Below are positions 51,420 to 56,074 of a stretch of DNA of 64,000 nucleotides, piece by piece (within the stretch, counting starts at the first letter, position 1; each line of letters opens with the position of its first letter). Where the stretch lies: positions 1-64,000 of the forward strand of contig CAMBRG010000002.1 in the NCBI GenBank assembly GCA_945869845.1, given 5' to 3'. A model generated the notes under the pieces. That model saw nothing but the letters and a program-made list of their open reading frames with translations. It searched no databases and was not told where the DNA came from. Position numbers and translations under genes: made by a program. The stretch comes from Opitutus sp. GAS368. Its GTDB lineage: Bacteria; Verrucomicrobiota; Verrucomicrobiia; Opitutales; Opitutaceae.

Positions 51420-51674
51420 ATGGCAACTGCTCCCAATTATCGCACTATGGCCGAGTATTACATCCGTGGCCTCACGGAAGGTTTCATCGATGCGGCGGAA
51501 GTGATCGCGTGGACCGACGGCGTAGTCGTCGAGGCGGCGAAGACGGAAGACTGGATGCTCGATATTTCCTCGGCCAGTCCCGAAGACCGCATGGGCGTGC
51601 TGCACCATTTGCATGCCGTGCAGGGCGAGGTCGACGAGGCCGCGCTGGCGGCGCTCTTGGCGGCGAAGAAATAA
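51420..51674 (+). CDS. Small hypothetical protein
   Basis: An 84-residue ORF starting at ATG 51420 (an alternative Met is at 51447); the track start 51330 lies in a repeat. The sequence (EYYIRGLTEGFIDAAEVIAW, WMLDISSASPEDRMGVLHHL) is acidic and protein-like. I recognise no domain. It lies 25 bp upstream of the PIG-L gene, so it may be in one operon with it. Confidence 0.65.
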   Translation: MATAPNYRTMAEYYIRGLTEGFIDAAEVIAWTDGVVVEAAKTEDWMLDISSASPEDRMGVLHHLHAVQGEVDEAALAALLAAKK

Positions 51675-51699
51675 ACGCGGTCCCAAGCGGAAGGGTCCG

Positions 51700-52551
51700 A
51701 TGAAGTTCTCCCGTCCTGAAGCCGATGTGTTTGTGCCTGCCGGCGGCGATGCTGCGCGTGCGCTCGCGCGGACGACGCACCTGTGCGTCATCGCCCACCA
51801 AGATGACATTGAGATCAACGCCTATTCGGCGGTGAGCGAATGTCTCGGGCGGGCCGACCGGTTTTTCACCGGGGTGGTCATGACCAACGGCGCGGGCTCG
51901 GCGCGCACGGGGAAATTTGCCCACGTGACCGATGCCGAGATGCAGGTGATTCGCCGCGACGAACAACGCACGGCCGCGGTGCTGGGTAACTACAATCTGC
52001 AGCTCCAGCTCGCGCATCCGAGCAGCGACGTGAAGCAAGCCGGCCACGCGGGCGTGACGGCGGACCTCGCGGCGATTTTTGGCGGCTGCCGGCCCGAGGT
52101 GGTTTACCTGCACCAGCCGGCGGACAAGCACGACACGCACGTCGCGTGTTTTTTGCGCTGCATCGAGGCCTTGCGGGCGTTGCCGCTCGACCGGCGGCCG
52201 GCGCGCGTGCTCGGCGTCGAAGGCTGGCGTGATCTCGACTGGCTCGCGGACAACGAGAAGGTGGCGATGGATGCCAGCGCGAATCCGGATTTGGCGGCAA
52301 AACTGGTCGGAGTCTTCGAGTCGCAGATTGCCGGCGGGAAACGCTACGACCTCGCGGCGATGGGCCGGCGGCTGGCGAATGCGACGTTCTTCAATTCACA
52401 CGCGACCGACGCGACGAACGCGATCTCGCTTGCGATGGACCTCACGCCGCTGGTGCGCGACGAGACGCTGAGCGTGCGGGAGTTTGCCCTGGGACATATT
52501 GACCGGCTGCGAGCGGATGTGGCCGGGCGGATCGAGAAGTTTGGCGGCTGA
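51700..52551 (+). CDS. PIG-L family deacetylase
   Basis: The 283-residue zinc hydrolase shows THLCVIAHQDDIEINAYSAV (~30-49; the family motif AHPDDE is varied to AHQDDIE) and the second ligand region VYLHQPADKHDTHVACFL (~138-155). Members remove acetyl groups from N-acetylglucosaminyl compounds. ATG 51700 is used because the track start (51613) lies within the upstream gene. Directly downstream (11 bp) is the remnant start of iolB with a good Shine-Dalgarno (GAGG), so PIG-L and iolB were formerly adjacent in an operon. Confidence 0.86.
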   Translation: MKFSRPEADVFVPAGGDAARALARTTHLCVIAHQDDIEINAYSAVSECLGRADRFFTGVVMTNGAGSARTGKFAHVTDAEMQVIRRDEQRTAAVLGNYNLQLQLAHPSSDVKQAGHAGVTADLAAIFGGCRPEVVYLHQPADKHDTHVACFLRCIEALRALPLDRRPARVLGVEGWRDLDWLADNEKVAMDASANPDLAAKLVGVFESQIAGGKRYDLAAMGRRLANATFFNSHATDATNAISLAMDLTPLVRDETLSVREFALGHIDRLRADVAGRIEKFGG

Positions 52552-52573
52552 CGAGGCCGGCGATGAATTCCGC

Positions 52574-52620
52574 CTCCCGTCACCTGCGCGCGTTCGACAA
52601 CCTGAACCGCGCGTTGGTTG
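52574..52620 (+). repeat. 47-bp direct repeat, left copy
   Basis: 45 of 47 positions are identical to 54172-54218 (core CACCTGCGCGCGTTCGACAA). Weaker similarity continues about 11 bp upstream to the start codon and about 20 bp downstream. The two copies are exactly 1598 bp apart. Confidence 0.92.
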
Positions 52621-52644
52621 GGCCGCACCCGGGACCGCTGCGCC

Positions 52645-52668
52645 GACTCGATCCGAAGGGGTCGAGTC
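52645..52668. terminator. Possible terminator at the left edge of the island
   Basis: GACTCGA and TCGAGTC form a 7-bp stem with a 10-nt loop, followed on the plus strand by TTGTAGTTTTTC. It lies between the iolB fragment and the convergent 184-residue gene. Confidence 0.4.
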
Positions 52669-52729
52669 TTGTAGTTTTTCATTCTTTCTTCGGAGGACAA
52701 AATGCAAAGTTTGATCCCTTTTCAGCCCC

Positions 52730-53284
52730 TTAGATAACATCCGAATTTCGCTCCTGTGATCGGTCCCAGGTTCCGCCGAATATAACCGCCCAATCGGGCT
52801 CCAACATCATCATGCTACGTGTCCAAGGATCGCGAAAATGATGCAGATAAAATCCCCACTTAATCTTGACCCAAAGCGGGCGATTTCCGGCAACCTGAAC
52901 AAGCTCCAGATCATGCTCAGGCCGCTTGGCGATCTCATCCGAAATCTGAAAAAGGCCGTCCAGAATTTGATTCAGTTGCACATCTAGCTTCCTCTTCGCT
53001 TCGTGATGACCGTAGACCGCGAGCGCGAAATAGCAGGGCTGAATGTGGTCACGTATGACTCTGGATGCGGCAACCCAAAGCTGCGCAGGATTATTTCGGC
53101 CATGGTCGACCTGCTCGACCTGCTCTCCGAGCGTCATGATGCGATAAGCTAAGTCCGCCACGACATCTTTGAACTTCGTATAGCGCTGAAACACGATCGT
53201 AGAGTAGATGCCGATCGCTGCTCCTATCAGAACACCTGTAAGCCCGTTTCCTAAGCTTTGAAAGCTGTCGATGAGCGCCGCCAT
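52730..53284 (-). CDS. Hypothetical membrane-anchored protein (island cargo)
   Basis: A 184-residue protein with one N-terminal membrane segment (GVLIGAAIGIYSTIVF, ~17-32), followed by a helical soluble region (KDVVADLAYRIMTLGEQVEQ) and an aromatic-rich C-terminus (WVKIKWGFYLHHFRDPW). GC content and codon use are clearly lower than in neighbouring genes. No recognised family. It is transcribed after the 165-residue gene with a 55-bp gap, so the two probably form a module. Anchoring plus soluble domain would suit an effector or sensor, but that is a guess. Confidence 0.75.
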   Translation of the reverse strand: MAALIDSFQSLGNGLTGVLIGAAIGIYSTIVFQRYTKFKDVVADLAYRIMTLGEQVEQVDHGRNNPAQLWVAASRVIRDHIQPCYFALAVYGHHEAKRKLDVQLNQILDGLFQISDEIAKRPEHDLELVQVAGNRPLWVKIKWGFYLHHFRDPWTRSMMMLEPDWAVIFGGTWDRSQERNSDVI

Positions 53285-53339
53285 TTCGTCGAGCGTTCAG
53301 CTGTCATCCACGCGCGAAGCGCGTAGTGCCTTTGTGCGC

Positions 53340-53837
53340 TTATAGGGCTCTTTTTTCTTCATGAATAACGTAGCGAGTCTTCGATCCTCGAAGAGTCAGC
53401 GGGCGTAAATGGCCCCCCCCGTGCTTCTTTAGAAACACGGCATAACTACGAGGATTGGCCTCTTTGAAGAGCTCATTTGCAGCGGCACCGCGATCCTTCT
53501 GAACGCTGGCCACTATATTGGCCATCGCGGAATTGAGCTCTACGAAATACGATAGCTCCTGAAAATCTTCTATGACGTAAACTCCAATATGACGCGCCAG
53601 CAACTCAAGCGCGGTCTTCGGGTTCGGCAGTATGGCCCACAAATGAACAACATGCTCACCATTCATCGCGAGCATCTCCTTACCGCGCCTTCGCATCTGG
53701 ATCTCCCACACGCGGAGCAGACACTCGAACGGCTCAAGCGACGGGAATTGCTCCGCGATGGTGGTAGCTTCGCGTCTCACTTCTTCCAAAAGCTTATAGA
53801 ACGCCTGCGAACCTTTAAATCTAGTTATGAATCCCAT
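53340..53837 (-). CDS. Hypothetical protein (island cargo)
   Basis: A 165-residue soluble, mostly helical protein beginning MGFITRFKGSQAFYKLLEEV, ending in a basic segment (LRPLTLRGSKTRYVIHEEKR). A central stretch (VVHLWAILPNPKTALELLAR) looks folded. No motif recognised. Its base composition is low-GC like its partner. It is the first gene of the presumed island transcript, with promoter sequence expected in the AT-rich DNA beyond 53838. Confidence 0.75.
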   Translation of the reverse strand: MGFITRFKGSQAFYKLLEEVRREATTIAEQFPSLEPFECLLRVWEIQMRRRGKEMLAMNGEHVVHLWAILPNPKTALELLARHIGVYVIEDFQELSYFVELNSAMANIVASVQKDRGAAANELFKEANPRSYAVFLKKHGGGHLRPLTLRGSKTRYVIHEEKRAL

Positions 53838-54154
53838 AGAAGTGGTTTTTTTTGCCGATCAGTGTTATCGAGCCCCAGTGGAAGGTCCAAGTTTGGTCGC
53901 GCCCATTGCTCGAAGGAAGGGTGCTAATGTGCTGATATTCAATGGCAGATTATCGATTTTCGGTTTTTTCGGCCGTGGTTCGCGCCGGCTAAAGCCTAAG
54001 TTGAAAACCGGCCGAGCCGAGGGGTCCGGCCGAGCCGAGGTGTCTGGCCGTTGTTTGCTATTCTTTCGGCTGAATCGTGGCCCTTGAATTACGGCATTAG
54101 CCCTTCCCTTCTTGATTGGCGTCACTTTTCGCTCCCGGTTTCCTTTCCTCTGTT
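53838..54154. other. Right part of the island without a gene
   Basis: This ~317-bp AT-richer stretch has no supported ORF. It contains the presumed promoter of the two minus-strand genes and, near 54010-54035, a direct repeat of CCGGCCGAGCCGAGG. The plus-strand ORFs 53589-53927 and 53827-54087 look like shadows. Confidence 0.5.
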
Positions 54155-55027
54155 TTGAAAACAATTTCCCTCTCCCGCCACCTGCGCGCGTTCGACAACC
54201 GGAACCGCGCGTTGGTTGCGCCTCAGTCCGGCCTGTTGGCGTTAAGTTATTTCAACGTGCTCCGGTTGCGGGCCGGCGAGTCGCTGACGTTGACCGTCCC
54301 GGGCTGCGAGTTGCTGTGCGTGGTGCTTGCCGGTGCGGCGGATGTGTCGGTGGCCGGGCAGGCATTTGAAGACGTCGGTCGGCGCGCGGGGATTTGGGAC
54401 GGCCCGGCGGACTCGGTTTACTGCGGCACCCACTCGCCCGTCACGGTGCGCGCGCGGCGCGACGGCACCGAGATCGCGGTGGCGGGCGGAATTTGCGGCG
54501 GGTCATTTGCGCCGTTTCGGATCACGCCCGAGGAAGTGGAAATGGTCGAGGTCGGCTCGGCGGCGACGCATTCACGGCGGCGGATATTTCATATTCTCGG
54601 CCAGAACGCCACGGGCCGCGCCGGCAATCTCCTCGTGAGTGAACTCTATGCCGATGCCGGCTGTTGGTCGGGCTATCCGCCGCATAAGCACGATACGGAG
54701 CGTCCGCCCGAGGAGACGGCGTTTGAGGAAATTTATCATTACCGCTTCTGGCCGGAGACGGGTTTCGGTGCGCAGTTCTGCTATGAAGAGCAGGCCGGGG
54801 TGCCCGACGCGGCGACGCCGCACGTCGTCATGACGAGGCACGGTGACACGTTCTTGGTCGACCGCGGCTATCATCCGACGGTGGCTTCGCCGGGCCACGA
54901 GGCGTATATCTTCACGATTTTGGTGGGCGCGCACCAACGCTCGCTCGTGCAGTCGTTCGAGCCGCAGCACCGGCATCTGATGGCGAAGATTCCGGGTATC
55001 GATGCGATGCGGAGTAAGTTTAAATGA
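54155..55027 (+). CDS. iolB: 5-deoxy-glucuronate isomerase, altered start
   Basis: IolB isomerises 5-deoxy-glucuronate in myo-inositol catabolism. The cupin metal motif is clear in GYPPHKHDTERPPEE with EEIYHYRFWPETGFG (~180-205), a hallmark of IolB, and the C-terminus HPTVASPGHEAYIFTILVG matches. At the position of the ATG in the left fragment this copy has ACA, so initiation would have to use TTG 54155 or TTG 54116, neither with a Shine-Dalgarno. The protein may be poorly made. No other iol gene is in the window. Confidence 0.82.
   Translation: MKTISLSRHLRAFDNRNRALVAPQSGLLALSYFNVLRLRAGESLTLTVPGCELLCVVLAGAADVSVAGQAFEDVGRRAGIWDGPADSVYCGTHSPVTVRARRDGTEIAVAGGICGGSFAPFRITPEEVEMVEVGSAATHSRRRIFHILGQNATGRAGNLLVSELYADAGCWSGYPPHKHDTERPPEETAFEEIYHYRFWPETGFGAQFCYEEQAGVPDAATPHVVMTRHGDTFLVDRGYHPTVASPGHEAYIFTILVGAHQRSLVQSFEPQHRHLMAKIPGIDAMRSKFK
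54172..54218 (+). repeat. 47-bp direct repeat, right copy
   Basis: Partner of 52574-52620, located inside the current iolB coding region in the same reading frame (SRHLRAFDNRNRALV). The two copies bracket the low-GC island. Confidence 0.92.
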
Positions 55028-55079
55028 GGGCGGCTCCGCGCTACTTCCGGCCGGGAACCGGCTGACCACCGCCAAGCTT

Positions 55080-55179
55080 CGGAGATTTTGACCGCGAATG
55101 GCTTCGCTACCGCTGCGCCTCGGAAGTGGGTTTCGCCTGATCGGCTCCACTTGGAGTTTCGGGCCGGCTGATCGCCGGC
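55080..55179. repeat. 100-bp repeat, copy B
   Basis: Copy of 50184-50283; the best conserved parts are GCGAATGGCTTCGCTACCGC and the terminal palindrome GGGCCGGCTGATCGCCGGC. It occupies the gap between iolB and the SDR gene. Confidence 0.75.
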
Positions 55180-55294
55180 AGGGGGTTCGGACCAAGGATG
55201 AGGGGGCGAAAGACGTCACCGATTCTCCCTTTGAAGACTGTAGGTAACCTCAAAGTATTCCACCAACGGCCGGTGCTTCAGGCCGAATTCTCCC

Positions 55295-56074
55295 ATGACG
55301 CCAAAATCTCCTCTCTTTGATCTCACCGGGCGCACGGCGCTCGTCACCGGTTCCAGCCAAGGCATCGGGCTGGCGCTCGCCCGAGGCCTCGCCGAAGCGG
55401 GCGCGGCGGTGGTGCTCAACGGCCGCGATGCGGCGAAGCTCGATGCGGCGGCGGAGGCTTTGCGGGTAGCAGTGCCGGGGGCGCGGGTGACGACCGCGGC
55501 GTTCGACGTGACCAACGCGGCGGCGATCGAGACGGCGGTGGCGCGGATCGAGGCCGAGTTCGCGCCGATCGATGTTCTCTTTAACAACGCCGGGATTCAC
55601 CGCCGCTCGCCGCTGGCCGAAATGTCCGAGGCGCAGTGGCGTGAGGTGCTCGACACGAATCTCACGAGCACCTTTCTCGTCGCGCGGGCGGTGGCGCCGC
55701 GGATGATCGCGCGCGGCGCCGGGAAAATCATCAACACCTGCTCGGTCATGAGCGAGGTGAGCCGGCCGACGATTGCCAACTACGCGGCGGCGAAGGGCGG
55801 CCTGAAAATGCTCACGCGCGCGATGGCCGTCGAGTGGGCGAAGCACGGCCTCCAGTGCAACGGGATCGGGCCGGGCTACATCGTCACCGAGCTGAACCGC
55901 GTGCTAGTTGAGAACGTGGAGTTTAACAAGTGGATCTGCGGCCGCACGCCGGCGGGGCGTTGGGGGCAGCCGGAGGAGCTCGTCGGCGCGGCGGTGTTTC
56001 TGGCGTCGGCGGCTTCGAACTTTGTCAACGGGCAGATTCTTTACGTGGACGGCGGTCTGCTGGCGGCGATCTGA
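55295..56074 (+). CDS. SDR oxidoreductase, gluconate 5-dehydrogenase (IdnO) type
   Basis: A 259-residue SDR: GRTALVTGSSQGIGLALARGL (NAD(P) motif ~12-32), NNAGIHRR, active-site TCSVMSEVSRPTIANYAAAKGG with Ser and YxxxK, and the C-terminal FVNGQILYVDGGLLAAI. The HRRSPLAEM and GPGYIVTELN segments are typical of gluconate 5-dehydrogenase/2-deoxygluconate 3-dehydrogenase. It probably oxidises or reduces a keto-sugar acid, in keeping with neighbouring IolB. Confidence 0.87.
   Translation: MTPKSPLFDLTGRTALVTGSSQGIGLALARGLAEAGAAVVLNGRDAAKLDAAAEALRVAVPGARVTTAAFDVTNAAAIETAVARIEAEFAPIDVLFNNAGIHRRSPLAEMSEAQWREVLDTNLTSTFLVARAVAPRMIARGAGKIINTCSVMSEVSRPTIANYAAAKGGLKMLTRAMAVEWAKHGLQCNGIGPGYIVTELNRVLVENVEFNKWICGRTPAGRWGQPEELVGAAVFLASAASNFVNGQILYVDGGLLAAI

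Follow-up and report, generated by a model that had tools for sequence, protein, structure and literature searches.

For CALINs, integron gene cassettes found without intI, three origins have been proposed: off-target insertion, loss of intI, and rearrangement (PMC8618304). Insertion of cassettes uses GTT-type sites (PMC10127599). Two other described systems are islands flanked by repeats: dusA-associated islands (DAIs) combine semi-conserved direct repeats with a gene start that is derived from the island (PMC4482086), and CIMEs are repeat-flanked islands that are recognised as a form of decay (PMC5704250). Here we describe an island at the start of an iolB gene that shares features with, and differs from, each of these systems.

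Like a CALIN, the iolB island contains small, low-GC ORFs of unrecognised family that run in one direction, with putative attC-derived separators and without intI, and an array elsewhere in the same genome (contig C57) is itself CALIN-like. Unlike a CALIN, it has only two putative cassettes, its sites are degenerate and fall below the scores of attC models, and it interrupts a gene start of which one flank is duplicated; cassette insertion does not produce such a duplication. Off-target insertion also places cassette DNA outside the integron platform, but it uses a GTT-type site without a 73-bp repeat, whereas the junctions of the iolB island lie in such a repeat. The resemblance to DAIs lies in the imperfect direct repeats of a gene 5' end, the apparently island-derived downstream start and the displacement of the original start; however, DAIs encode their own integrase, rely on a 21-bp semi-conserved site and are present in many genomes, and the iolB island was seen to share none of these features. 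Finally, the island is, like a CIME, flanked by repeats and devoid of integration and transfer genes, but no related complete element with the same site was found, and the iolB repeats are putative att sites.

The duplicated iolB start

The window, that is, the whole stretch of 64,000 nucleotides analysed, belongs to contig C2 of a draft metagenome genome (G000; 3.62 Mb in 219 contigs, 83% complete). The features in and around the island are the following.

51700-52551, + strand: gene for a PIG-L family deacetylase; native, 85-100% identical to the relatives G005 and G008 (60-bp steps) up to the stop codon
52563-52640, + strand: iolB start, left copy; its ATG is 11 bp downstream of the PIG-L stop, and its resemblance to iolB extends over ~26 codons
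52574-52620, + strand: left 47-bp core; 45 of 47 positions identical to 54172-54218
52645-52668, + strand: terminator-like hairpin with a T-rich tail, reading with PIG-L; 2 such sites were found, against a mean of 2.5 in shuffles
52649-52731, no strand assigned: repeat dispersed in the genus, AAAGGGATCAAACTTTGCATTTTG..., with similar copies in G005:C16 and G007:C171
52730-53284, - strand: ORF1, 184 aa, no family recognised; gene of the putative second cassette remnant
53288-53348, - strand: degenerate site, apparently attC-derived, 61 nt, with hairpin CGCGC-TTC-GCGCG; homologous to attC sites of L089, L090 and L091, the hairpin being common to an attC of G000:C57
53340-53837, - strand: ORF2, 165 aa, no family recognised; gene of the putative first cassette remnant
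53854-53877, - strand: attC 3'-half-like motif TGGGGCTC-n8-TGATCGGCAAAA, located 16 nt ahead of the ORF2 ATG and presumably marking where the first cassette has its 5' boundary
54009-54074, no strand assigned: dispersed palindromic repeat CAAACAACGGCCAGAC..CCTCGGCTCGGCC, also in G000:C100, G008:C46, G001:C751 and G001:C701
54161-54238, + strand: iolB start, right copy, whose frame continues into the remaining iolB; it contains the core 54172-54218 and lacks an ATG, the TTG at 54155 being a candidate start
54239-54370, + strand: rest of the divergent iolB tract, with 55-62% identity to G008 (sister genome) and its right breakpoint near 54370
54377-55027, + strand: remaining iolB, 85-100% identical to G008 in 60-bp steps

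The start of iolB is present twice, as a direct repeat of 73 bp (52568-52640 and 54166-54238; 84% identical, spacing 1598 bp) that is the longest repeat within 51500-56000. The mismatches are concentrated outside the 47-bp core, which contains an imperfect inverted repeat (GCGCGTTC-GACAACCG-GAACCGCGC): the longest run with at most two mismatches is 47 bp, a length reached by 0.06-0.3% of random placements, and the clustering has a p value of about 0.001-0.005. The flanks outside the core are still iolB-like in both copies (GPHPGPL / APQSGLL), so that the left copy is related to iolB beyond the 47 bp, and only beyond about 78 bp does the identity drop to background (5-9 of 30 positions). The initial annotation had described these two copies, with their near-identical core and diverged flanks, the natural start of the left copy, the fusion of the right copy to the rest of iolB, the low-GC DNA in between and the lack of a visible integrase, and on all these points we agree. 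It also had the left copy dying after ~27 codons, which needs correction: the ORF that starts at 52563 has 56 codons (52563-52733), and what stops after ~26 codons is its resemblance to iolB. When the flanks are joined at the core, an intact iolB of 288 aa results, with its ATG 11 bp downstream of the PIG-L stop codon. The iolB product belongs to the KduI/IolB family (PF04962, 2.7e-69). Against TIGR04378 it scores 168 bits, short of the equivalog cut-off of 205 bits, and its intact relatives also stay under this cut-off.

The island between the copies measures about 1.53 kb and has a GC content of about 52% (0.48-0.54), against about 64% (0.60-0.72) in its surroundings; the view that it is foreign DNA inserted at the iolB start is supported. 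Short pieces of it match other loci within the genus, and no RNA family was found. The repeat at 52649-52731 (GGGTCAAACTTTGCAxTTTG) was also observed in L005 and L012, being inverted in L012. The palindromic intergenic repeat at 54009-54074 (CTAACAAACAACGGCCAGA-CCC-TCGGCTCGGCC) was seen in L002, L003, L009, L011 and L092; the genus has five or more copies, and none of the attC models recognised it.

On its right side, the island opens into a mosaic gene: from 54167 to ~54370 iolB is mostly 55-62% identical to G008, and from 54377 onward the identity is 85-100%. Judging from these alignments, the first ~200-210 bp of iolB is a divergent allele with a sharp recombination breakpoint near 54370; a donor of the tract 54167-54370 was looked for and not found. 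The reading frame of the right copy is open through to iolB, with TTG codons at 54116 and 54155 as the sole start candidates; no ATG or GTG start is present in the N-terminus supplied by the island, and no match to a sigma-70-like promoter was found for the right copy.

Among the genomes compared, the arrangement was seen in this one only. Freshwater Opitutia MAGs, from Lake Baikal and Tous, are among the same-genus genomes. Of 19 iolB loci from other, named genomes, 0 have a second iolB start; when the iolB start was used as a DNA query against 252 genomes of the family, the left copy turned up in G000 alone, and the exact 47-bp core had no further occurrence in these 252 genomes and was absent from the viral contigs searched. 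The outer flanks are syntenic with G005 and G008 on both sides of the island, and the sequence immediately 3' of the PIG-L stop has no match in these two genomes. Within the genus, PIG-L and iolB are separated by an alginate-lyase-like gene or lie 8.4 kb apart, or PIG-L is followed by an SDR gene. The initial annotation had looked to close relatives for an uninterrupted PIG-L-iolB junction with a single core, and to other genomes for the same core around different cargo. Neither was encountered: no uninterrupted junction was found in the genus, PIG-L directly before iolB without an insert was seen only in G036, a more distant member of the family, and the core does not flank other cargo in the relatives searched. 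We also considered the left copy as a remnant of the native iolB of the recipient, which is unlikely, as it does not resemble the G008/G005 allele.

Probable attC-derived sites and integron cassettes

The GC content by codon position is coding-like in both ORF1 and ORF2, and their overall GC resembles that of the C57 cassettes (about 52%). No homologues of either were found in the 252 family genomes, and their structure predictions are of low confidence (mean pLDDT 51 for ORF2 and 56 for ORF1). A phage or plasmid origin was dropped: the core and the ORFs are unmatched in the viral contigs, and the island had no match among plasmid sequences.

The DNA preceding the two ORFs points to integron cassettes. 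Firstly, the piece 53303-53360 matches sites in L089, L090 and L091 that were called attC by a covariance model built from cassette arrays of the family, and the alignment of 53288-53348 with these attC sites was matched by 0 of 2000 shuffles. Secondly, the 20-nt hairpin pattern of this site occurs five times in 13 genus genomes: in the island, in three sites recognised by the attC model, and in the C57 array. Thirdly, a motif of the attC 3' half was trained on 23 same-genus attC sites, the island being left out, and when the 64 kb were scanned with it, 53295 and 53861 were the two best minus-strand positions, and the second and fourth overall of 127,936; these matches directly precede the start codons of ORF1 and ORF2, respectively. 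It should be noted that the island sites had been spotted by eye before the motif was made, and that the scan itself took in all positions. Furthermore, the layout is that of cassettes: ORF2 and ORF1 lie in one direction (minus strand), R' is located 16 nt (ORF2) and 3 nt (ORF1) before the ATG, and the site at 53288-53348, which ends 3 nt before the ORF1 ATG, overlaps the stop codon of ORF2. The full attC covariance models did not score the island sites as significant (the regional best, 7.3-9.8 bits with E 0.07-0.43 in 2 kb, are located elsewhere), and the 5' halves of the sites are weak (ranks 338 and 369); therefore, the island sites are probably decayed. A genus-specific attC motif may thus recognise decayed sites that full covariance models miss. 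We conclude that the island most likely consists of two decayed integron gene cassettes, antisense to iolB and without an integrase.

Cassettes also occur elsewhere in this genome and its family. Contig C57 (L143, 6550-9934) carries a cassette array of about 52% GC with seven attC sites, six detected by the model and one with the island-type hairpin; no intI was recognised at this array, and no direct repeats flank it. Integron integrases are frequent in the family (TIGR02249 above cut-off in 28 of 95 relatives, including the same-genus G011), and none was found in G000. G005:C5 carries an array with two closely similar attC sites. At L089 (4963-5023) and L090 (14121-14181), a small ORF resembling a membrane protein, with ordinary chromosomal genes on both sides, is followed by a single attC-type site; these are apparently orthologous places in two genomes, and the site would represent a solitary cassette. 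Our search of the literature on integrons in Opitutales returned no matching report, and these loci document integron cassettes, both array-borne and scattered, in a freshwater genus of the Opitutaceae.

Possible origins of the island

The known reaction of cassette insertion leaves no long repeat, and none is present at the C57 array; the iolB repeat therefore does not belong to the mechanism by which cassettes insert, and the duplicated iolB start needs a second process. The explanation that we hold to be somewhat more probable than all others together is that the island is a decayed, integrase-less cassette pair of the CALIN type, and that the iolB duplication arose by accidental recombination in an acquired allele. 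A divergent iolB allele, together with its PIG-L-iolB junction, would have entered the lineage by homologous recombination, with its right breakpoint near 54370; cassette DNA and intergenic repeats would then have been joined into the start of this allele, by a recombination after which the first ~78 bp of iolB were present as two imperfect copies. Of these, the left one would have become a dead stub and the right one would continue into the main part of iolB, with the two cassettes lying in the order ORF2, ORF1, each behind what is left of an attC end. We infer this order of events, as well as the duplication by general (homologous or illegitimate) recombination rather than by a dedicated integrase. 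One variant was rejected: if a plus-strand cassette had been inserted off-target by IntI at the GTTGGGC of the left copy, the right copy would have to be attC and iolB together.

On the other hand, the repeats could be attL and attR of an element that integrates at the 5' end of iolB and replaces its N-terminus, the island being a minimal or decayed cis-mobilizable unit with the cassettes as passengers. The identity of the core, which exceeds that of the diverged yet iolB-like flanks, fits a reciprocal crossover at a fixed core, and is left unexplained by simple duplication followed by neutral decay; in this respect such an element accounts for the data better than accidental recombination. 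Moreover, an intact, ATG-started iolB is regained when the flanks are joined at the core, DAIs have the same layout (PMC4482086), and CIMEs provide a recognised form of decay (PMC5704250). However, no integrase lies in or near the island, whose ORFs belong to no recognised family, the intact tyrosine recombinases found in the genome (83% complete) are XerC/XerD-like only, the core and the second iolB start do not recur in the genomes and viral contigs searched, and the supplied 5' end has neither ATG nor GTG. We therefore consider this origin rather unlikely, and an old accidental recombination is favoured over a dedicated attachment site. If the repeats are true attachment sites, they would link integron cassettes to mobile elements that target gene 5' ends.

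The initial annotation had proposed such an element, in the form of a minimal att-flanked cargo unit mobilised in trans, or of a remnant. The foreign insert, the natural left start, the restoration of iolB on joining the flanks, the precedent of the dusA islands and the local lack of an integrase agree with this proposal; the lack of other cargo around the core in relatives, the 0 of 19 second starts and the supplied N-terminus with TTG only do not. In addition, degenerate integron cassettes as cargo point to a relic. A 1.6-kb integrase-less element with att sites specific for the iolB start and integron cassettes as cargo, mobilised by XerC/XerD or by an integrase of another replicon, appears improbable, and the island appears to be what remains of a gene capture, not an element that still moves. 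Apparent att-flanked islands in draft genomes may thus be explainable by cassette relics and recombination at a gene start.

We also give little credence to a one-step templated or slipped-strand event, in which replication would have stalled within the iolB start, which is rich in GC, taken up cassette DNA from another place as template and resumed upstream of the stall, so that ~80 bp around the insert were duplicated and then drifted. Such an event would yield an insert and a flanking duplication of a short gene start without a recombinase, and the imperfect inverted repeat in the core would suit it, but it predicts an even spread of mismatches instead of the observed clustering outside the core. 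Least probable is an assembly artefact in which strains were joined at the repeat: strain mixtures can yield chimeric joins in so fragmented and incomplete a draft metagenome genome, but if strains had been joined at the shared 47-bp core, the island would be missing rather than kept with both copies, and both flanks are syntenic with G005 and G008.

Elsewhere in the genome, contig C44 (L178, 1480-1824) encodes a 114-aa fragment of a Xer-like tyrosine recombinase; a Fic-like ORF lies about 0.9 kb from it.
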